Positions 4,722 through 21,734 of a DNA stretch of 40,125 bases are shown one piece after another. Each line of letters opens with the position of its first letter. Position 1 is the first letter of the stretch. The notes under the pieces are model-generated. The model did no database searches. It saw only the letters and a list, made by a program, of their open reading frames with translations, and had not been told where the DNA came from. The position numbers and the translations under genes are program-made. Source of the DNA: Oscillospiraceae bacterium (GTDB lineage: Bacteria; Bacillota; Clostridia; Oscillospirales; Ruminococcaceae); contig WRGW01000103.1 of NCBI GenBank assembly GCA_009786985.1, forward strand, positions 1-40,125, given 5' to 3'.

Positions 4722-5333
4722 TCAAATTCCCAACTTTTCAAACAAATTTTTCAACGATTTAACAGTAGGAATCAAAAGCATATGAGATTTCATTTTGACA
4801 CCATCAAATTCGATTACTTTGTCGATACAGAGCAATTTTTCTCCAACTTCACCAAACTCAATTACCGGAACGCTCATAATCGCACCAAACATATCTACAG
4901 TAAAGGATGGCGTATCTGTGCCGATTTGTAAGCCTGCAAGTGTCGAAATCGCATTGATATATGAGTGACTCATTATATTTCCGATTTCAGTTAGTGCTGA
5001 AATTTCATCGTCATTAAGAGTAAGCAAATCAACATTCTTCTCACCGAAAAATGAATTTAATATGTTTGCAACAAATTCATGCTCAACTATTAAAAGAATC
5101 ATTCCTTCAACTTCGTCTTTAAGTCGGACTAAAACCGCCGCAACAGTTTGTTCGGGATTACCACTATGTGCAATCGCATCTTGAAACGCTAAAAATCTCA
5201 CTTCAGGCATACTGATTACAATATCTCTACCAGTCATGGCACATAGAGCCGTCGAAGCGTTGCCTGAACCTATATTCCCGATTTCAGTCAAAACGTCTAT
5301 ATGAACTTCTTTTAAGTCTTCATATTTTTTCAT
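4722..5333 (-). CDS. cheC: CheY-P phosphatase CheC
   Basis: CheC removes phosphate from CheY-P and binds CheD. The 203-residue product has both active-site repeats of the family pattern [D/S]xxxExxN: DVLTEIGNIGSGNAS near residues 14-28 and SALTEIGNIMSHSYINA in the middle. Both are intact, so two phosphatase centres are predicted. The next gene downstream is cheD, about 120 bp away, and the next upstream is flgG, 47 bp away, all in the same direction. FliY in the same cluster carries the same kind of domain, so the cell has at least two CheY-P phosphatases. Confidence 0.94.
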   Translation of the reverse strand: MKKYEDLKEVHIDVLTEIGNIGSGNASTALCAMTGRDIVISMPEVRFLAFQDAIAHSGNPEQTVAAVLVRLKDEVEGMILLIVEHEFVANILNSFFGEKNVDLLTLNDDEISALTEIGNIMSHSYINAISTLAGLQIGTDTPSFTVDMFGAIMSVPVIEFGEVGEKLLCIDKVIEFDGVKMKSHMLLIPTVKSLKNLFEKLGI

Positions 5334-5380
5334 TATGAAATTTTCCTTTCACGTCCGCAAAACTCTTGCAAACTACGAAT

Positions 5381-6124
5381 TTATCGTAAGTTATTTACAA
5401 TCCTCATAAGTTCATCAGATGTTTGGATTACTCTTGCATTAAGTTGATACGAACGCTGTGTTTCAATTACTCGAACCATCTCGTTCGCCAAATCAACTGC
5501 TGACATTTCTAATGCACCAGGTACCATGCTTGCACCAGTATTAATTTCAGGTTGACCCGAACGCCCAGTCACTACAAAACGATTATTCTGTGCTTGGTCT
5601 AAACCCCAAATGTTCGGTACCGTAAATGTACCAATAACCTGATACAAAGAAGCATAATCGATTTCAGTGGTATACTCACCGTCATCAGTCATCACAAAAG
5701 GAATAGGGATTCTATTGCCATCAAAATCGAGTACAAAATCCCCAAATCCGTTTACAAGTTCCCATTCCCATTTTCCACCAGTGTTTGAAATTGTAAATCT
5801 ACCTTCACGGGTGAGGAAAGTATCGCCGTTTCTATCCATAGTCATAAAAAAGCTATCATCAGTGAACGCAAAATCAAGCGGCAAATCAGTAAAAGTGATT
5901 CCAGCTTGCGCCCATAACATATCTGTTTTGGCAATGCGCTGACCATGACCAGTTTGCCATTCATCACGGTTGTGATGCTGATGAGTATAAATCAAATCCG
6001 CAAAACTCGGACGGAGAGGTTTAAATCCAGTCGTATTAACATTGGCTATGTTATTAGAATAAATGTTCATAGCTTGTTGTTGCGTAATCAAACCAGTTCT
6101 ACCAGTAAAAAACGAGATATTCAT
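5381..6124 (-). CDS. flgG: Flagellar rod/hook-basal body protein (FlgG/FlhP type)
   Basis: Axial rod protein exported through the flagellar type III apparatus. The 247-residue product has the N-terminal rod motif QQAMNIYSNNIANVNTTGF (about 17-35) and the C-terminal motif SMVPGALEMSAVDLANEMV followed by ETQRSYQLNARVIQTSDELM. These two ends pair as a coiled coil in the assembled rod. AAGGTGG precedes the ATG. It is paired with the paralogous gene at 6198-6956, as flhO-flhP are in Bacillus. FlgF versus FlgG cannot be assigned firmly by eye. Confidence 0.85.
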   Translation of the reverse strand: MNISFFTGRTGLITQQQAMNIYSNNIANVNTTGFKPLRPSFADLIYTHQHHNRDEWQTGHGQRIAKTDMLWAQAGITFTDLPLDFAFTDDSFFMTMDRNGDTFLTREGRFTISNTGGKWEWELVNGFGDFVLDFDGNRIPIPFVMTDDGEYTTEIDYASLYQVIGTFTVPNIWGLDQAQNNRFVVTGRSGQPEINTGASMVPGALEMSAVDLANEMVRVIETQRSYQLNARVIQTSDELMRIVNNLR

Positions 6125-6197
6125 TAGTTAGACCACCTTATTATTTTTCTATTTGTACTTACTGTATTGTACCCACTCGTACAAAAAAAGTAAGAAC

Positions 6198-6956
6198 CTA
6201 TCTATTCATGTCCGCCAAATCAGCGACACGACTGTTGATTGTATCTAATCCTCTAAGAATTACGCTGTTCGCTTCGAACTGACGCTGAATTTCCATCAAG
6301 CGTGTAGTTTCGCGGTTAGGATCAACATTTGAACGCTCAAACGCACCTTGAATTATATCAAAGTTCGCATCAGCTGGAATCACATTAGTACCCACACCAT
6401 CATGTGCAAATAGATTGTCACGGACTTTACGTACATTTGCATCACTAGGAATATAAGTCAAAAGCAGAGTATCAATCACCTCATCGCTTTCAGAGTGAAT
6501 AATCACGCCTTCGGTTGTAACCCTAAAGTCATCATGCCCAATATAAATATCGCCAGAAATTCCCTGAACACGCCCTGAATCACCTAAAACCAAATACCCC
6601 ATGTTATCGAGTTCAAACTGCCCAGTACGGCTGTTGTAAGTATTCCCGAATCTATCAGTTATGTTAAAATAGACATCACCCCAAATCGCCAAATCAAAAC
6701 GACTATCAGTGAAATCAAGCGAACCTTGTTCTAAAAAAGTATGCGATTCTTCCACAAAAGTTTGCTGAAAACTACCTTCATGAACCGCACGCCGCCTTTG
6801 AACCCAAATCAGCTCATCTTGAAATGTATTAAGGCTTACTCTGTCTTTCCTAAACCCCGCAGTATTAATGTTAGCGACATTTTGTGCAACGGCATCTAAC
6901 TCACGCTGTTTAACAATCATCGCCTGTGCGGAATTATAAAAACCTCGTAAAAACAT
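6198..6956 (-). CDS. flgF: Flagellar rod/hook-basal body protein (FlgF/FlhO type)
   Basis: Second axial rod protein of the FlgG family, 252 residues. The N-terminal segment LDAVAQNVANINTAGFRKD (about 21-39) and the C-terminal GAFERSNVDPNRETTRLMEI plus RQFEANSVILRGLDT are the conserved rod ends. It lies directly downstream of fliA and has its own sigma-A promoter in the fliA-flgF gap. GGGGAAAGTGG precedes the ATG. It probably forms the distal or proximal rod with its neighbour. Confidence 0.83.
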   Translation of the reverse strand: MFLRGFYNSAQAMIVKQRELDAVAQNVANINTAGFRKDRVSLNTFQDELIWVQRRRAVHEGSFQQTFVEESHTFLEQGSLDFTDSRFDLAIWGDVYFNITDRFGNTYNSRTGQFELDNMGYLVLGDSGRVQGISGDIYIGHDDFRVTTEGVIIHSESDEVIDTLLLTYIPSDANVRKVRDNLFAHDGVGTNVIPADANFDIIQGAFERSNVDPNRETTRLMEIQRQFEANSVILRGLDTINSRVADLADMNR

Positions 6957-7002
6957 CCACTTTCCCCGACTTTCTTAATAAAATCTGATACCTATTCTGA
7001 AT

Positions 7003-7031
7003 ATTATATCACAAAAAAATACGCTTGTCAA
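7003..7031 (-). promoter_or_regulatory. Sigma-A promoter for flgF-flgG-cheC-cheD
   Basis: Consensus -35 TTGACA (7026-7031), 17-bp spacer and -10 TATAAT (7003-7008) on the minus strand. It sits immediately after the fliA stop codon, so these four genes can be transcribed without read-through from the long operon or the methyltransferase island. Confidence 0.9.
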
Positions 7032-7034
7032 GTG

Positions 7035-7796
7035 CTAATTCAAATTTTTGATATAATATTCTAACTTTTGTTTTAGCAAAATCATACATTTAGAGTGAAT
7101 TTGGCTAACGCGCGACTCCGTCACTCCAATAATATCTGCGATTTCACTCAGTTTAAGTTTCTCAAAATAATACAGACTGACAACTTGTTTTTCCCTAGGT
7201 TTAAGCCCGTCAATAGCTTCAGCGATTACACGCTTACGTTCTTCGAGATAAATCCGTGTGTCCACTCCGCCTGAATTACCAGCAACCCCCTGCCCTGCTG
7301 TGTTATAAAGGCTGATATTATCTTCATACAAAAGTTCTTCAAAAGAGAGCGTGTTAGTCATCGCTGTATCGGAAAGCATTTTCGTAAACTGAGCCTCCGA
7401 AAGTCCCATATACTCCGCAAGTTCTGCATTAGTAGGCGTTCGGTCGAGTTTGTGATACAAAACACCATACGCCTCATCCATCTTTTTCCCGAATTTACGT
7501 ACGCTTCTCGGAATCCAGTCCTGCTTTCGGATATAGTCAATAATCGCACCTTTGATTTTAAGTGTCGCATAGGTTTCAAACTTGACACCGCGCAATACAT
7601 CAAAAGTCTCCACCGCTGAAATCAAGGCGATTACACCTTCATTCACAAGGTCATCGACTTCATATCCCTTAGCGTACATATTTCTAAGAACAGCCGCAGT
7701 TTTGTTGACTAAATTCATGTGTTGTAACACGAGTTCATTACGGATTGTTACATCTGATGTCTCTTTGTATTTTTGAAATAATTCTTGATTGGTCAA
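7035..7796 (-). CDS. fliA: Flagellar sigma factor sigma-28 (FliA/SigD)
   Basis: Sigma factor for late flagellar and chemotaxis genes, 253 residues. Region 2 contains NLVNKTAAVLRNMYAKGYEVDDLVNEGVIALISAVETFD and YATLKIKGAIIDYIRKQDWIPRSVR, the signature of the FliA/WhiG family. Region 4 contains GLKPREKQVVSLYYFEKLKLSEIADIIGVTESRVSQIHSK with its helix-turn-helix. The start is a TTG supported by AAAGGAGG nine nt upstream. It usually follows flhG or che genes; here it lies downstream of the methyltransferase island, so its operon transcription must cross that island. No promoter of its own was seen. Confidence 0.95.
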   Translation of the reverse strand: MTNQELFQKYKETSDVTIRNELVLQHMNLVNKTAAVLRNMYAKGYEVDDLVNEGVIALISAVETFDVLRGVKFETYATLKIKGAIIDYIRKQDWIPRSVRKFGKKMDEAYGVLYHKLDRTPTNAELAEYMGLSEAQFTKMLSDTAMTNTLSFEELLYEDNISLYNTAGQGVAGNSGGVDTRIYLEERKRVIAEAIDGLKPREKQVVSLYYFEKLKLSEIADIIGVTESRVSQIHSKCMILLKQKLEYYIKNLN

Positions 7797-7822
7797 AGGA
7801 TTTTCCCTCCTTTGGCTTTATT

Positions 7823-7844
7823 TAAGTGCCTGTTCAGTATCTCA
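7823..7844 (+). repeat. Solitary end of the family C element
   Basis: TAAGTGCCTGTTCAGTATCT resembles the terminal inverted repeat of the full element at 15556-15722 (TAAGAGCCTGTTCAATATCT), with two differences over this 20-mer. No partner end is seen within the island. It marks the fliA-side edge of the foreign DNA and may be a leftover of the element that brought it. Confidence 0.5.
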
Positions 7845-7849
7845 TTTCA

Positions 7850-8054
7850 TCACCCATAAAGTTCTATAAGCTCGCTTGAGTTTATTTTTATTCCCACATT
7901 TTCAAGGTGATGTTTTCTTTTAGTGTGCAAATCCAGCAGAAGTTTCTTACGCTCCTTGTTTGGAGCAAAATGCACTTTTTTATGACATACCGGACATAAA
8001 GAAATCACATTTTCGATAACATCAATCACCGTTTATGATTCTATGAGTTGTCAT
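7850..8054 (-). pseudogene. HNH endonuclease remnant (C-terminal part)
   Basis: On the minus strand, AAGGAGAGG precedes an ATG (8052-8054) that reads MTTHRIINGD and then stops. The next frame continues VIDVIENVISLCPVCHKKVHF and ends HLENVGIKINSSELIELYG at 7850. The combined pattern, H-R-I-I ... D-V-I-E-N-V-I-x-L-C-P-x-C-H-K-K-x-H, is that of the HNH/McrA-like nuclease core with its CxxCH metal site. The N-terminal DNA-binding part is missing and a frameshift separates the two pieces. It is a remnant of a restriction-type nuclease, in keeping with the methyltransferases upstream. Confidence 0.65.
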
Positions 8055-8083
8055 CAAAACCTCTCCTTAACATTACGAATCGC

Positions 8084-8180
8084 TTTATTGAAAGTTCGGG
8101 GGGTAATACCCCGACGCTCTGCGTCAGTTCGTGCGAGCGAAGCGTGAAGGGTGAAGGACTGCCCTGCGGTGTTACCGAAC
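8084..8180 (-). repeat. Family B repeat, copy 1
   Basis: Read on the minus strand, this about 97-bp block matches the blocks at 17539-17643 and 37246-37343. It has terminal inverted segments (GTTCGGTAACACC...GGTATTACCCCCCGAAC), a CGCTTCGCTCG hairpin and a GACGCAGAGCGTC hairpin. It lies between the HNH remnant and an unrecognised small ORF and explains most of the gene-free stretch 8055-8183. Confidence 0.75.
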
Positions 8181-8183
8181 ATT

Positions 8184-8414
8184 TTAATCAACTAAATCTA
8201 TAATTTTTAAAGAAGTGAGCGAAATATCCATCATTATTGGCAACATCTCCTCAATCGTCCATTCAGTTGGTTTTGTATAAATAGATACTGCCTGTAGCAT
8301 AACAAGCTTTTCGTCAATAGGAATAGATATATTTTCACAATTATTTTGATTGATAGGTAAACTATAATTTGCAGCTGTTAATCTATCAATTCTATTCAAC
8401 AAAAGCATATCCAT
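8184..8414 (-). CDS. Small hypothetical protein, doubtful gene
   Basis: A 76-residue open frame; I do not recognise it. It is acidic and hydrophobic toward the C-terminus (TIEEMLPIMMDISLTSLKIIDL) with no TM segment or motif. Its ATG overlaps the end of the nuclease remnant in another frame and has no convincing ribosome binding site. It may be a shifted 3' piece of a longer lost gene of the island rather than a working gene. Confidence 0.3.
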   Translation of the reverse strand: MDMLLLNRIDRLTAANYSLPINQNNCENISIPIDEKLVMLQAVSIYTKPTEWTIEEMLPIMMDISLTSLKIIDLVD

Positions 8415-8700
8415 GTTTCAGCAAATGTGCGTTTATAAAAGTCTTGTTATCGAGATAAAGATACGCTGGCAAAAAGCCATCATCACATTGTAAACCCTGA
8501 GTTTTATCTTCTTTTAAGAAAACTTTTCTTCCCTTAAACTTATCCGTACATAAATTCAATAGCTTGATTTAGTTTTGAAACATCATTTTTGAAAAATAGT
8601 TTACAGCTTTATCATGTTTCTGTGCTTTTTCACCAAATATTTCTTTTGGACCTTGTCCTTTTATTTTTTCTTTAGTTAATCGGTCAGTTTGTCTTTTCAT
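8392..8700 (-). pseudogene. Staphylococcal-nuclease-like (SNase) gene with an in-frame stop
   Basis: An ATG at 8698-8700 with AGGAAGGGAC upstream opens a frame of 43 codons, hits TAA (8569-8571), and continues in the same frame for 58 codons to TAG at 8392. The joined product looks like the C-terminal two-thirds of a thermonuclease domain: FGEKAQKHDKAV before the stop, then FKGRKVFLKEDKTQG, GFLPAYLYLDNKTFINAHLL and KHGYAFVE. These match the family pattern GkkVyLe.D...GRlLAYvyl.dg.fvNeeLlr.GyA. The N-terminal catalytic strand with IDGDT and the first arginine are absent. The most likely reading is a decayed nuclease gene; stop read-through is less likely. It begins 12 bp after the methyltransferase at 8713. 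Confidence 0.6.
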
Positions 8701-8712
8701 TTTTGTCCCTTC

Positions 8713-9777
8713 CTACTTACAACATTTGTGTCTAATCAAAATTCTGAAATATGGGCATTTGCCGTTCACCGATAAATCTTTTCCATCATTACCTTTGCGA
8801 AATCCAACTATTTCAAATTGTTCTGGACAATATTTGTGGAGAAAAGAAATAGGGACACCCATTACGCCATCATAATCCGAAGGAATAGCATAGGTAAAAG
8901 GAACTTCAATCGCATCGTAATTGTCATATTTGTCGTAGATTTTTTTGCCTCTGATTGCTTTGTGGTTACTATGCTTAAAATTTTCCTCCATTGTCATAAG
9001 TTTAAGTTTTTTATGGCGACGACCATGTTCAAGATTTGTAAGCCAGATGGTGTTATTTGTAGAAACTATTCTATTACCGTGTTCATCTATTCTTGCTTCA
9101 GAACCATTTAGCGGATAATGTTTTGGTACTATAAATCCCTTAAAACTCCTCCCAAAAGCTAACCCCATCCACATACAGTTGTTTTTAATTAAAGGAAAAA
9201 TTTCTTTGTAAGTAATCGCATTCATATTACTGATGAGCAAAAACTTTTTCTCATACTTCATAAGTTGCCCCACGTATTCCCTAAATAGAGAAAACGGTGG
9301 ATTAGTAACGACAATATCAGCTTCTTTGAGAAGTGCCACACACTCATCAGAGCGAAAATCACCATCGCCATTTAATCGAGTCAAGATATTTTTCTTATTT
9401 CGCAAAAGCCATTCAACATCTGGTAAACCGACAGCACCATCACCAGTATAATCATCGACCTCAGTAATAACAATTTTGTGAGGAGCTTTTGTAGTCTTGT
9501 TTTCTACTGATTCGTCATCAAACAAGGAAAGCTGCGTATTCGCAATCGGCGAACCTGAATAACAAGTCGCAATCAGCTTTTTCAAACCCCACGAATTAAA
9601 CCCCATCGCAAAATACTTAAAGAAATTACTCTCGTAAGGGTCATCACAATTACAGAGAACAACTTTTCCTTTGAATTGTTCTTTATAGTACCGCAACTCT
9701 TTTTCAATATCTACTAATTGTGTATAAAACTCATCTGATTTTGCTTTTTTCGCTTTATCGAGCGTTCTTGTTGCCAT
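8713..9777 (-). CDS. Adenine-specific DNA methyltransferase, EcoRI family
   Basis: The 354-residue product resembles the M.EcoRI-type N6-adenine methyltransferase family. The N-terminal KSDEFYTQLVDIEKELRYY and LCNCDDPYESNFFKYF (residues 41-56) are typical of the family, and the catalytic NPPFSLFREYV sits at 159-169. GDGDFRSDE (137-145) and IVPKHYPLNG are also family-like. The frame is open upstream from a TTG; I chose the ATG at 9777 because GAGGGGG lies just before it. The leader carries a degraded copy of the flhA 3' end. No EcoRI-like endonuclease is adjacent, only remnants of other nuclease types, so it is an orphan or a decayed restriction-modification partner. Its target site cannot be read from the sequence. 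Confidence 0.88.
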   Translation of the reverse strand: MATRTLDKAKKAKSDEFYTQLVDIEKELRYYKEQFKGKVVLCNCDDPYESNFFKYFAMGFNSWGLKKLIATCYSGSPIANTQLSLFDDESVENKTTKAPHKIVITEVDDYTGDGAVGLPDVEWLLRNKKNILTRLNGDGDFRSDECVALLKEADIVVTNPPFSLFREYVGQLMKYEKKFLLISNMNAITYKEIFPLIKNNCMWMGLAFGRSFKGFIVPKHYPLNGSEARIDEHGNRIVSTNNTIWLTNLEHGRRHKKLKLMTMEENFKHSNHKAIRGKKIYDKYDNYDAIEVPFTYAIPSDYDGVMGVPISFLHKYCPEQFEIVGFRKGNDGKDLSVNGKCPYFRILIRHKCCK

Positions 9778-9785
9778 GTGACACT

Positions 9786-9861
9786 CACCCCCTCGTCTCA
9801 AAAATCAGCTTCAAACATTACTGCCCTTGAGCGTCCACACCACTAGTCAATTCTTTATTAC
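9786..9861 (-). repeat. Direct repeat of the flhA 3' end, copy beside the EcoRI-family methyltransferase
   Basis: Read on the minus strand this repeats the last codons of flhA, its stop and the downstream leader (true copy at 11386-11474). It still reads NKELTSGVDAQGQ-stop against NKGLPGGLPSGMDSQGQ-stop in FlhA. There is a 12-bp gap and about six substitutions in the best 61 bp. The stop codon of the upstream methyltransferase (9858-9860) lies within its first bases. The 3' part of the repeat supplies the GAGGGGG ribosome binding site for the methyltransferase at 8713-9777. Confidence 0.85.
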
Positions 9862-11381
9862 TCATCAAATCTTAACTGTTTGCCTTGCTCTTCAACAATT
9901 TTTTTAGATTGTTTTGTTACCCTTACAGTAGGCATTTCAAATCTTGCACCATTTAACATATCCCCGATTTTAACAATTTTGATTACTTCGATTTCTTTTT
10001 GATAGATATCACAATAATAAGTTCCTGCATTTACAGCATATTTTATCATTGGAGCGGTCGGTTCTTGTAAAGTCAAGAATATACCACATACAGCTTTTTC
10101 TATTTGTATCACACTATGAAAATCACGTATATCTCTTTCGCCTACTTTTCCCGATTTAACAGAGAATAAAACCAAACTTGGGTTGTATTTATCGTCTAAA
10201 ATACGCAATCTACCGTCAATTCCGCCGTCTGCACCTTTTTTATCATTTGGAATTGCATTATCATTTGAGTATGTCAACACTGCCCACATTTCAAACTCTT
10301 TACGTAATTTATCGCTTTCTTTTGCCAACGCATGAGCAGACTTCATGTCAAGCGGAACGCCTTTAATGTTTTTGTTTTGGATTATACTTTCGCCATAAGT
10401 ATCAATTAAGCGTTTCTTAATCACATAAATGCTTTGATATGTTATGTCAATTCCTATCCATTTACGATTTAATCGCTGTGCTACTGCTATTGTAGTTCCG
10501 CAACCACAGTAACAATCTAAAACCACATCACCCTCATTACTACTTGCTTTTATTATGCGTTCTAATAGCTTTTCAGGTTTTTGTGTCGGATATCCTAGTT
10601 TTTCTTTGTTGCTCCCTGCTAATATTGAAATATCCCATACATCTCTTGGTATTCCATGATTGATATTAAACCCTTTATTTTCATCTGTTGTATCGATTAT
10701 CGTAGTCTTACTTCCTGCAAAATGCTTATTGCTTACAAATCCGTTTTCATCTGCATATTTCCCCCAACGCTTTATTGTGCTTTCGCTTGGTGGAAAGTCT
10801 TTTCTATCGGGATTAAAATATGAATTTTTACCTTTTGTATAGAAAAATATTACATCATGGTCTTTGCCAAAATGAGATTTTAGTACTTTTAATGTTGACC
10901 TATAACTCCAAATTATCTCATTCTTAAAATCGCCACCTTGACTGCAAAATACAGCATCAAGCAACAATTTCAAATAATGACTTGCAGTAGTATCGCAATG
11001 CAAATAAAAGCTCCCTGTCGGCTTCAAAACACGATGTATTTCAGCTATGCGTAATGTCATTGAAACTATATATGCAAGCATACTGCCTTTGCCGAGTATC
11101 TTTGTCAATCCCTCAATCAAATCTATTGCTTGGTGAGGGAGTTTGTGTTTGTTTAACATTATTTCGTTTAATGATTTAACAGATTCAACATCCCAATCCC
11201 ACTTATCTACAAATGCTAATACTTGTGCTTTATCCTCTGTCCCTATGTTGTTATAAATTTGATTGTAATTTCGTTTTGAATTAAATGGCGGGTCTATATA
11301 ACATAAGTCAACGGTTTCGTCTTTAATATATTTACGCATTATGTCAAGATTATCTCCAAAGTATAATTGAGGATAATTCAT
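9858..11381 (-). CDS. Site-specific DNA methyltransferase (beta class) fused to a PD-(D/E)XK-like domain
   Basis: 507-residue product. Motif IV DLCYIDPPFNSKRNY (catalytic DPPF at 30-33) comes before motif X/I: TQKPEKLLERII (266-277) and VVLDCYCGCGTTIAVAQ (286-302), which binds SAM. This order marks a beta-type N4-cytosine/N6-adenine enzyme. After residue 350 a second domain shows GADGGIDG (383-390), LVLFSVKSGKVGERDIRDF (403-421) and GIFLTLQEPTAPM. This pattern is close to Mrr-like nuclease folds, with D389 and S407-x-K409 in the D...(E/Q/S)xK positions. The protein may therefore both modify and cut. The start at 11381 follows GAGGGGGG. The gene sits between direct repeats of the flhA end. Confidence 0.9.
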   Translation of the reverse strand: MNYPQLYFGDNLDIMRKYIKDETVDLCYIDPPFNSKRNYNQIYNNIGTEDKAQVLAFVDKWDWDVESVKSLNEIMLNKHKLPHQAIDLIEGLTKILGKGSMLAYIVSMTLRIAEIHRVLKPTGSFYLHCDTTASHYLKLLLDAVFCSQGGDFKNEIIWSYRSTLKVLKSHFGKDHDVIFFYTKGKNSYFNPDRKDFPPSESTIKRWGKYADENGFVSNKHFAGSKTTIIDTTDENKGFNINHGIPRDVWDISILAGSNKEKLGYPTQKPEKLLERIIKASSNEGDVVLDCYCGCGTTIAVAQRLNRKWIGIDITYQSIYVIKKRLIDTYGESIIQNKNIKGVPLDMKSAHALAKESDKLRKEFEMWAVLTYSNDNAIPNDKKGADGGIDGRLRILDDKYNPSLVLFSVKSGKVGERDIRDFHSVIQIEKAVCGIFLTLQEPTAPMIKYAVNAGTYYCDIYQKEIEVIKIVKIGDMLNGARFEMPTVRVTKQSKKIVEEQGKQLRFDE

Positions 11382-11385
11382 ACCG

Positions 11386-11474
11386 CACCCCCCTCGTCTC
11401 AAAAATCAGCCTCTTACATTACTGCCCCTGAGAGTCCATACCACTAGGAAGTCCGCCAGGCAACCCTTTATTAC
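11386..11474 (-). repeat. Direct repeat, original flhA 3' end and leader
   Basis: It contains the last codons of flhA, the stop, and the about 30-bp leader ending in GAGACGAGGGGGG before the methyltransferase start. It is the partner of 9786-9861. The 24-bp leader core is almost identical in both copies, differing by one C in the C-run. The coding part shows mainly silent or conservative differences, so the second copy either aged in place or came from a related strain's flhA. Confidence 0.85.
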
Positions 11475-13572
11475 CAAGAGTAATATTGCCGATTGACTGA
11501 ATCTGAACAATACTATCGATTTCATTATAAGAAAGCACAGTAATCCCTGGTATAAATTGTTCAACCAATTTCTTATAATACACACGAACAATCGGGCTTG
11601 TGAGAACGATTACTTGCGGTATAACATCACGAACTTTGTTGATTTCTTCGGTAGATACAGCCATAATTTCCTGAATAGTATCAGGGTCAAGTGCAAGATA
11701 ACTTCCTCGGTCAGACTTTTTGACGTTTGCGATAATCGTATCTTCAATCCGTGGGTCGAGGGTGATTACACGAAGCGAGTTAGCTTCAGCGAATCTCCTT
11801 GTAATCGTACGTTTGAGTGCTTGACGAACGTATTCAACCGCAATATCAATATCTTTGAGCGACGCAACATTTTCCGCCAACGATTCAAGAATCGTCTCCA
11901 TATCACGAATAGGAATACCCTCTTTAAGCAACATACAAAGAACTTTTTGCAGGTATCCAATCGATACAATGCTTGGAATAAGGTCTTCCACCACGGCAGG
12001 ATTGCTTTCTTTCATGTTCTCTACCATAGTTTTAACATCTTGGCGCGACAGAATTTCATGACAGTGTGTCCGCACGACTTCTGACAAATGAGTAATCATT
12101 ACAGAAACAGGGTCAATTAGAGTGTAACCCGCAACGTCAGCGACGACTTTTTTGTCCTCACTAATCCAGCGTGCAGGAATACCAAACGCTGGCTCAATCG
12201 TATCAATACCCTCTACTTGATTAACAACATCTCCATTATCAATCGCCAAATAATGGTCGGTAAGAATTTCACCACGTGTGACTTCTTCACCCTTGATTTT
12301 AATCAGATACTGGTTAGGGTTGATTTCAGGATTGTTGCGCATACGAACAGACGGGAAAACCATTCCCATTTCAGTGGCAAACTGCTTTCTGAAAAGAACC
12401 ACACGTTCAATAGTACTACCGCCACTCTTTTCATCTACCAAGTGCAGTAGCGAGTACCCGAATTCCATCTCAATTTGCTCAACATTAAGTAACTTGAACA
12501 CATTATCGATATTTCGATAATATCCCTCTTCACTAGCACTGCCATTAGCAGGCATAGCCTCCATTTCATCCATCTCGACTTGTTCGGCTAAGACTGCGTT
12601 TTCAATTTCTTGGCGTTTTAGCATTCTGCTAATCATGTATCCGAATATAATCAAAGACGTACCAATCAAGAATAAAATCATTCTCGGGAAACCTGGTAAA
12701 GCCATCAAAGCCAACACCGTCATACCCGCAATGTACATAATAGTCGGATTTTGGGTAAACTGTCTTCTTACATCAAAGTTGAAAGAACCTTCAGTTCCCG
12801 CTCTCGTAACGACCATACCAGTCGCAGTTGAAATCATAAGTGCTGGAATCATCGACGCTAATCCATCACCTACCGTCAAGAGGAAGTAGATGTCAGTAAC
12901 ATCGCCAAAAGTCATTCCATACATAACCATACCAATTATACCGCCCGCAATCAAGTTGACGAGGGCTGTGATAATCGACATAATAGCGTCACCTTTTACG
13001 AACTTAGTAGCACCATCCATCGCACCAAAAAAGTCAGCCTCACGCTGAATTTTTGAACGACGGATTTTCGCTTCCTCATCAGTAATAGCACCAGTATTGA
13101 GGTCAGCGTCAATCGCCATCTGTTTTCCTGGCATAGCGTCCAAAGTAAATCGTGCTGCAACCTCCGATACACGCTCTGAACCCTTAGTGATTACGAGGAA
13201 GTTGGTTATTACAATGATTATAAATACGATAAATCCGACAACAGCATTTCCGCCCATTACGAAGTTACCATAAGTCGCAATTACATTACCCGCCGCCGTT
13301 TCGCCAGTAGTTGCAGCATTAGTAAGAATCAGACGAGTGGTGGAAATGGTTAATGCTAATCGAAAAACCGTCGTAATCAGAAGAATAGACGGAAAAATCG
13401 AAAACTCAAGCGTTTCCTTGATATACATGGTCATAAGCAAGATAATAACTGCAAGAGACACATTTATAATCAAGAAAAAGTCAATCAAAGTGGTAGGAAG
13501 TGGTATTACTATAGCAAGCACAATTACAATGACAAATACTGCAAATATATTATTTAATAGCTTTTTAATCAT
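11419..13572 (-). CDS. flhA: Flagellar export gate protein FlhA
   Basis: Membrane export-gate subunit that forms a cytoplasmic ring docking export substrates and chaperones. The 717-residue product has about eight TM helices in the first 330 residues. The family signature RFTLDAMPGKQMAIDADLNTG lies in the large cytoplasmic loop, and the cytoplasmic domain fills residues 360-717. It follows flhB by 27 bp. Its last codons are duplicated downstream at 9786-9861. flhF and flhG, which normally follow, are replaced by DNA methyltransferase genes. Confidence 0.98.
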   Translation of the reverse strand: MIKKLLNNIFAVFVIVIVLAIVIPLPTTLIDFFLIINVSLAVIILLMTMYIKETLEFSIFPSILLITTVFRLALTISTTRLILTNAATTGETAAGNVIATYGNFVMGGNAVVGFIVFIIIVITNFLVITKGSERVSEVAARFTLDAMPGKQMAIDADLNTGAITDEEAKIRRSKIQREADFFGAMDGATKFVKGDAIMSIITALVNLIAGGIIGMVMYGMTFGDVTDIYFLLTVGDGLASMIPALMISTATGMVVTRAGTEGSFNFDVRRQFTQNPTIMYIAGMTVLALMALPGFPRMILFLIGTSLIIFGYMISRMLKRQEIENAVLAEQVEMDEMEAMPANGSASEEGYYRNIDNVFKLLNVEQIEMEFGYSLLHLVDEKSGGSTIERVVLFRKQFATEMGMVFPSVRMRNNPEINPNQYLIKIKGEEVTRGEILTDHYLAIDNGDVVNQVEGIDTIEPAFGIPARWISEDKKVVADVAGYTLIDPVSVMITHLSEVVRTHCHEILSRQDVKTMVENMKESNPAVVEDLIPSIVSIGYLQKVLCMLLKEGIPIRDMETILESLAENVASLKDIDIAVEYVRQALKRTITRRFAEANSLRVITLDPRIEDTIIANVKKSDRGSYLALDPDTIQEIMAVSTEEINKVRDVIPQVIVLTSPIVRVYYKKLVEQFIPGITVLSYNEIDSIVQIQSIGNITLGNKGLPGGLPSGMDSQGQ

Positions 13573-15527: not shown

Positions 15528-15555
15528 AATATTTCCGCCATTTCTCCGCCATCTC

Positions 15556-15722
15556 TAAGAGCCTGTTCAATATCTCCAAACGAGCGGAATTTCGATTAAA
15601 TTTTTCGTTAGACAAGGCGAAATTTTTGCGAATATCCATTGATATTTAAGAAAATTTCAACGCAGTATGACGGCAAATTTACCGAAAATTTCGCCGTGAG
15701 CGAGATATTGAACAGGTTCTAA
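15556..15722. mobile_element. Family C MITE-like element between fliQ and fliR
   Basis: The inverted ends AGAGCCTGTTCAATATCTC (15558-15576) and GAGATATTGAACAGGTTCT (15702-15720) differ at a single position. The whole 165-bp block is an imperfect palindrome with arms of about 80 bp; inner arms include GGCGAAATTTT and AAAATTTCGCC, and the centre is AATATC-catt-GATATT. No coding capacity is present. The structure fits a non-autonomous transposon moved by a transposase elsewhere. A TA or TAAG-like flank may be the target duplication. Confidence 0.8.
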
Positions 15723-15757
15723 GCTATTATTCCCAATAATACTACATTTTCGACTTT

Positions 15758-20732: not shown

Positions 20733-21734
20733 TCACGGAATCGTTGGAATCGCAAAGTCAAATCCACGCCCATCGCCAGGAGTAGGTTCTGGAACTTCAA
20801 ACACTTGGTCTAAAGCTGAACCGTATCTCTCGCGGATTAGTTGGTAAATATGTTGATTTCTATCAATCGTTGTAGGACAAGGACGCCTGTTTCCATGCGG
20901 TCCAGTCGTAATCAACGGGAAGAGATAATCAAACTCTAACATATCGAGCATTGCAACAGTATTTTCAGGCATATACTCGTTACGAGACAAAATCAATTCA
21001 ACACGCCTATTACGGTCGTTGCTCGAAACTGTCTCAGTCGGGTAATGTGGATTAAACGGTCCATGACCAACTGGCAAAAACTTTTCCGAACTAACCATAT
21101 TCAACTCATCATCTAAGTATATAGTCACTGCAGTGGCACGATTTGCCGAAAGCCTCCAGTGGTTCATATCACCCCACGATGATACGCCTGGTGGTGCTGG
21201 TGCTGTATGACCAGCTACTTCAGCGTTTGCAATAAATCTATTTATCGCACGAATCCCAGGTGCGATTGTCGCCAACGCAGCCTGCCCCTGTGGGAGCAAC
21301 GTGTAACTCTCGGGTTCAAACATGATTTCATCATTAAAACGAATATGCATTCGCCCTTGATTCATCTCGACTGAAACATCTTGCGTTAAATCGGCTTCGC
21401 TAATCGCTTCAGCTACCCAGTTGAACAAGTCATCAAAAGTCATAGGAAACGTTCCCGGAATACCAGGGGTTTCACCCTCACGTGCTGGGTCATCTGGACC
21501 AGTATTGTCATCTTGTTCGCCTTGAGGTTCTTCAGGTTCGACAACAACTCTCTCAACCACATCCCCAGAAAGGCTTGCGAACGATCGTAAAATCCACTGC
21601 ATTCTATTTTCATCGGGGACTGAGGCAGTATACATCATAACAAAGAAGCAAAGGAGCAGTGTTACCATGTCTGCGTACGTATTCAACCAACCATCAGTTT
21701 TTGCAGGTGGTTGTGGCTGTTTTTTTCTTGCCAT
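20733..21734 (-). CDS. motB: Flagellar stator protein MotB
   Basis: Stator subunit of 333 residues. One TM follows WLNTYADMVTLLLCFFVMMY, with the proton-binding aspartate D22. An acidic, proline-rich linker (about 60-95) and a C-terminal OmpA-like peptidoglycan-binding domain (AEVAGHTAP, LSANRATAVTIYL, SSNDRNRRVELIL) follow. The last 60 residues extend past the usual domain end. It follows motA by about 95 bp. GAGGAAGG precedes the ATG. Confidence 0.96.
   Translation of the reverse strand: MARKKQPQPPAKTDGWLNTYADMVTLLLCFFVMMYTASVPDENRMQWILRSFASLSGDVVERVVVEPEEPQGEQDDNTGPDDPAREGETPGIPGTFPMTFDDLFNWVAEAISEADLTQDVSVEMNQGRMHIRFNDEIMFEPESYTLLPQGQAALATIAPGIRAINRFIANAEVAGHTAPAPPGVSSWGDMNHWRLSANRATAVTIYLDDELNMVSSEKFLPVGHGPFNPHYPTETVSSNDRNRRVELILSRNEYMPENTVAMLDMLEFDYLFPLITTGPHGNRRPCPTTIDRNQHIYQLIRERYGSALDQVFEVPEPTPGDGRGFDFAIPTIP

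Follow-up and report, generated by a model that had tools for sequence, protein, structure and literature searches.

Within a flagellar operon, a DNA methylase gene (MT1) was found between two diverged copies of a short sequence block, one copy standing between flhA and MT1 and the other between MT1 and a second methylase gene (MT2). Our leading explanation, which we believe and doubt in about equal measure, is that MT1 was inserted between flhA and MT2 by a non-site-specific event with a long target duplication, and that this junction took up restriction-modification (R-M) genes at least twice. The MT1 locus is a sound and useful example of R-M gene mobility and not a categorically new one. 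The data do not support a dedicated cassette site that its own repeat rebuilds.

The stretch of DNA that was analyzed (the window, 40,125 nt) is contig C103 of a 1.81-Mb draft assembly in 112 contigs (genome G000). The minus strand, on which all features of the locus are located, reads fliO, fliP, a fliQ-sized ORF, fliR, flhB, flhA, block copy 1, MT1, block copy 2, MT2, a broken EcoRI-type nuclease gene, an HNH-like scrap, fliA, and two flagellar rod genes. The host genes are flhA upstream (FHIPEP, 11419..13572; PF00771, E 2.4e-245) and fliA downstream (sigma-28 type, 7035..7796; Sigma70 regions 2, 3, and 4). MT2 (8713..9777, 354 aa) is an EcoRI-type adenine methyltransferase (PF13651, 3e-135). 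Behind it, a decayed EcoRI-type restriction endonuclease (8193..8700) was revealed by tblastn against the EcoRI homologue of the relative G006, which is itself a PF02963 protein (profile search, 1.3e-118). The N-terminal and C-terminal pieces of the decayed nuclease are 43% and 68% identical to this homologue, respectively, and stops and frame breaks are present. The translation of the scrap at 7850..8040 contains the motif CPVCHKKVH and resembles the end of an HNH nuclease. A short GC-rich stretch is found in the decayed region as well (8095-8180, 62% as compared to 34% for 7800-8712).

At the fliA edge of the R-M block, next to the fliA leader, a dispersed 21-nt terminal-repeat sequence is present as a single end (7823..7843), and 21-nt inverted ends about 145 nt apart are located at 15555-15723, between the fliQ-sized ORF and fliR. 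With up to 2 mismatches, the 21-nt end has 31 matches in G000, 24 in G003, and between 0 and 4 per genome in seven further near genomes, while the reversed control gave 0 matches in the same genomes. The dispersed element with these inverted ends looks like a MITE.

MT1 (9858..11381, 507 aa) carries, in a single chain, a DNA N6/N4 methylase domain (PF01555, 2.5e-46) and a PD-(D/E)XK-type domain (Mrr_cat, PF04471, 1.6e-06). D389 and K409 are invariant in seven MT1-family members and the position two before K409 is Ser in six of them and Glu in one. From its sequence, MT1 is probably a methylase with an Mrr-like domain as a putative nuclease part. In a family alignment, the C-terminus of MT1 resembles those of its relatives, which end at about the same protein position. 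Thus, the stop codon in copy 2 is also where MT1 would be expected to end.

The first-pass annotation of this DNA had described a direct repeat around the methyltransferase gene, and this was confirmed. Copy 1 (11389..11474, 86 nt) aligns with copy 2 (9788..9861, 74 nt) with a 12-nt gap. The ungapped core returned by the repeat search, 9788-9846 against 11389-11447, spans 59 nt with 53/59 identical (90%), and the local alignment score of the two copies is 88, as compared to a maximum of 28 among 100 resampled sequences. A 21-nt core of the block, allowing up to 2 mismatches, occurs at only these two places in 71 genus genomes, and was not found in the 70 genomes other than the window's own. 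Copy 1 consists of FlhA extension codons, the stop, a spacer, and a ribosome-binding-site-like GAGGGGG before MT1. Copy 2 differs by about 10% and by the 12 missing nucleotides, which are in frame with the FlhA reading, and has its GAGGGGG before MT2; the last 22 nt of the copies are identical, and in both of them GAGGGGG ends the copy a few bases before the next ATG. Further details of the annotation were borne out. Exactly one gene is located between the repeats (MT1, with its start codon ending at 11381), the MT1 stop (9858-9860) lies inside copy 2, where the GAG-TAA end of MT1 coincides with the first bases of the copy, and copy 2 still reads as an FlhA end in the FlhA frame (SGVDAQGQ-stop). 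The annotation had seen no integrase, and a recombinase gene is indeed absent from the interval between the repeats.

The annotation had also proposed that a conserved flhA end was rebuilt, and this part did not hold. The FlhA of the window has 20 residues after the conserved GNI/GSI/GTI, whereas the 57 same-genus relatives that were fetched (one further FlhA-bearing relative, G084, was left out) have 2 (46 relatives), 3 (three), 4 (six), 5 (one), or 10 (one). Given these tail lengths, 2-10 residues against 20, the idea of a repeat derived from a conserved FlhA end was dropped. In 46/57 relatives, FlhA ends where the repeat begins, the repeated codons are not conserved, and the label "last codons of flhA" holds for this genome. 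The block is a lineage-specific FlhA extension with a leader and a ribosome-binding site, and contains no restored conserved tail. The block was also compared to the flhA-fliA spacers of relatives. The 16 comparisons gave p values of 0.056 and 0.067 for G003, 0.018 for G071 (copy 2, a 17-nt match), and 0.16 to 0.99 for the other 13; given 16 tries, no homology to these spacers is claimed.

FlhA is present in 59/71 genus genomes, the window's own included. The examination of 58 of these (G084 was again left out) yielded 57 intervals with both flhA and fliA, counting the window. As the annotation had suggested searching this interval in relatives, it is worth stating that it is shorter than 260 nt in 54/57 and that the three filled intervals are those of the window (3.6 kb) and of two relatives with other R-M loads, G021 (1.6 kb) and G066 (1.9 kb). 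These three come from one near clade of nine genomes, defined by an FlhA segment with 84% or higher identity to that of the window, and the next genome reaches 78% at most. The hypergeometric probability for filled junctions in 3/9 near-clade genomes and 0/48 others is 0.003, calculated by hand on a grouping made post hoc. The cargo in G021 consists of a TdeIII-type nuclease and a methylase, and that in G066 of a methylase and a 360-aa protein with a sub-threshold EcoRII-C match alone and no match in PADLOC or NCBIfam. Both inserts sit between the flhA stop and the fliA leader, with no such border repeat and no recognizable block copy. The empty junctions of relatives are short, but the block is unrecognizable there. 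For PF01555, we counted 10 matches in G000, seven in G003, six in G066, four in G006, one each in G010, G021, and G065, and none in G071 (G086 was left out; G067, outside the near clade, also has six).

These data bear on the suggestion of the annotation that the site is a cassette entry point for defense genes. Variable R-M cargo at the junction was indeed found, with three different loads in 3/9 near-clade genomes. However, the fillings of G021 and G066 lack both repeat and block, and R-M genes of the same kinds also occur at other junctions in sister species. The flhA-fliA junction is a tolerated or favored landing place and not a demonstrated cassette entry point. Insertion after a stop codon and ahead of the following leader would require no special targeting, because a packed operon would tolerate little else.

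R-M genes of the same kinds are found at different operon junctions in the sister genomes, which supports the insertion of MT1 (gene names in this paragraph were read from translations, except those given with a Pfam family). On contig C13 of G000, an MT1-type gene directly follows dnaG, and on contig C15 another precedes rpoD, with a HindIII-type nuclease (PF09518) and a methylase behind rpoD. G003 has a methylase, rpoD, a nuclease, and a methylase in a row. For comparison, rpoD follows dnaG within about 100 nt in 9/10 relatives and about 190 nt in one. In G066, an MT1-type gene that overlaps the stop of gatA precedes an aspartyl-tRNA-synthetase-like gene, and one MT1-type gene of G003 is located among transporter genes. 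MT2-type genes are found before his-type genes in G000 and beside the EcoRI homologue (PF02963) in G006, and G018 has an MT2-type remnant behind groEL. As judged by eye, one nuclease-methylase pair is present at three different places in G066, G003, and G000, with the nuclease broken in G000 and the methylase also in G081, and a TdeIII-like pair is present at flhA-fliA in G021 and at another place in G010. Not every R-M gene here fits this pattern; on G000 contig C29 a methylase lies near a recombinase-like frame, and contig C81 resembles an ordinary type III locus.

In G003 (L093, 4886-5221), a 111-aa frame that by eye is like a truncated Dam-type methylase lies between two transporter-ATPase-like genes and is a possible older landing. 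Contigs C13 and C15 (L069, L070) begin with a near-same methylase start, the first 97 nt being identical; such copies may have interrupted the assembly, and there may be more methylase genes than were counted.

A border repeat of the same design is found in G066, where a type II nuclease (PADLOC REase_II) and a methylase are located behind addA. A 29-nt repeat (29/29) flanks the insert; it spans the stop of addA (TGA), and the methylase stop lies in its copy 2. Copy 1 and the bases that follow it read TTGACT-17 nt-TATAAT, which is promoter-like. Among ten relatives, a sigma-like gene is located directly behind addA only in G010. It lies beyond the insert in G066, another ORF separates it from addA in G021, and the other eight relatives have different neighbors or an early end. 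In a comparable case from beyond the genus, Anabaena sp. 54 (L224), a RidA-like gene has its last codons, stop, and spacer repeated at a distance of 269 nt past an MT1-family methylase match. The tandem methylases of G003 have a tail, stop, and spacer in common (57/57), which is ambiguous since they are paralogues. Finally, two MT1-family genes at different sites in G000 have a common stretch of 33 nt, the last two bases of which lie beyond the start codon. The same letters form the end of an aquaporin-like frame at one site, and at the other no upstream gene includes them; the aquaporin was present in 1/17 genomes searched, G000 itself.

Tandem MT1-family methylases are a distinct pattern, observed at L094 of G003 (5280-8246) and also at L284, L292, and L280. 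At L094, the first 105 nt match at 103/105 and the last 57 nt at 57/57, while the protein middles are widely different, as if target-recognition parts had been exchanged.

To gauge how common flanking repeats are, 18 methylase loci were examined, of which five were above controls. One of these is the window's MT1, three are methylase paralogues in tandem, and the fifth is an artefact that arose because test windows overlapped. A scan of 233 mechanically called ORF tails at 26 loci (threshold 46, one shuffle per tail, highest control 29) returned 12 rows above threshold. A stop-spanning repeat across a methylase was found for flhA, for addA (twice, on both strands), and for one methylase's own tail (L094). 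The other rows were rejected, as those at L069, L070, and L094 are tandem methylase starts, the row at window position 20733 is a repeat 300 nt away, and four rows at L098 do not span the methylase (three within 120 nt, one 2.8 kb away). In the MT1 family, the best 80 of 372 relatives were considered, some of them near-clade loci that the analysis already covered, and 11 of the 76 tested had flanking repeats, which rules out such repeats as a family rule. Seven loci were inspected: L292, L280, L277, and L284 are tandem methylase copies, L224 is target-type, L239 has a long duplicated gene end with another gene between, and L232 has no clear type. L249, L261, L265, and L278 were judged on aligned letters alone. 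Most R-M insertions examined do not have such a repeat, which counts against the target-duplication reading.

If MT1 was inserted with a long target duplication, the first arrival would have been an EcoRI-type R-M pair, MT2 and the nuclease that is now broken. Later, MT1 would have entered between flhA and MT2, and this step would have duplicated a 70-90 bp junction block with the last flhA codons, stop, spacer, and ribosome-binding site, placing copy 1 before MT1 and copy 2, which holds the MT1 stop, before MT2. With the copies so placed, every gene of the operon would still be translatable, and the duplication would be the scar of the insertion. The order of events, the duplicating step, and translation from the copied ribosome-binding sites are what we infer. 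Insertion of R-M genes with long target duplication was reportedly described by Nobusato et al. in 2000 and Furuta et al. in 2010. Since the copies differ by about 10% and 12 nt, a direct duplication must be old, and the flhA-MT2 state was found in no genome of the collections, which hold one genome per species. A close rival, though one that we consider somewhat unlikely, is recombination between a strain with flhA-block-MT1 and a strain with flhA-block-MT2, in which the DNA paired on one side and was joined over a few bases on the other, each methylase keeping its own copy. This would leave the same picture and would explain the divergence without a long wait, the GAG-TAA end of MT1 at the first bases of copy 2, and the different R-M loads at the junction in relatives; neither proposed donor state was found, again with one genome per species. 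We see very little prospect for the tRNA-gene-like scenario of the annotation, in which an element integrates site-specifically into the end of flhA and restores the gene. Direct repeats at a gene 3' end and recurrent use of the junction would fit, but the lack of a recombinase gene between the repeats, the repeat-free fillings of G021 and G066, and the lack of conservation of the repeated codons in FlhA all argue against it. An assembly artefact from mixed strains is least credible: the draft is in 112 contigs and C13 and C15 end in a near-same methylase start, but two points argue against it, the 10% divergence between the copies and the passage of MT1 into copy 2 at a place where no more than a short word matches the start of copy 1.

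The origin of the block can also be read differently. The block could be a leader carried by methylase genes that the first insertion appended to flhA, with FlhA extending into it. Its start at the FlhA end of 46/57 relatives and the 33-nt leader shared by two MT1-family genes elsewhere in the genome point this way, but MT1 and MT2 belong to unrelated families and yet have the block in common, and the block core is nowhere else in the 71 genomes, so we consider this improbable. The likeness of the G003 spacer would favor host DNA instead but is not significant (p 0.056). A broader proposal, doubtful in our judgment, follows from the 33-nt leader that the G000 genes have in common: R-M genes of this clade might move bare, with the 3' tail of the preceding host gene and its ribosome-binding site as a portable leader. 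Each landing would leave or import a copy of a gene end and keep the invaded operon running, and flhA-fliA would be a recurrent dock.

The route by which R-M genes lacking a transposase pass from one genome to another is an open question. In this clade, many R-M landings are found within household operons, and for some of them a sister has the empty site. Two landings keep a border repeat with a host stop and an expression-signal-like sequence, and the duplicating step can thus be compared case by case. The pattern suggests that operon function filters which landings survive. Methylase genes that move with the tail of a former neighbor as leader would, if true, be a possible new twist.

Three known systems are relevant to the locus. 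MT1-family tandems with repeated ends occur in G003, G000, Chromatium okenii, Thiospirillum jenense, and a Synechococcales MAG; in the window, however, the neighbor MT2 is of an unrelated family and the repeat is not the end of a paralogue. Integrative elements at tRNA or other gene 3' ends likewise have direct repeats of the gene 3' end around the insert, whereas the insert in the window is a single gene with no recombinase between the repeats, and no common core is present at the independent insertions in G021 and G066. The locus fits, with reservations, the published insertion of R-M genes with a long, variable target duplication (PMC3031569, PMC1643837, PMC3154945). The window differs from it in that the block sits within an operon and includes the stop of the upstream gene and a ribosome-binding site, that the copies have diverged, and that no single-copy ancestor is available. 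As in that published insertion, the inserted genes are R-M genes (PF01555, PF04471, PF13651; PADLOC type II methyltransferase models), direct repeats of the target lie at both borders, no transposase is needed, and the junction is empty in relatives.
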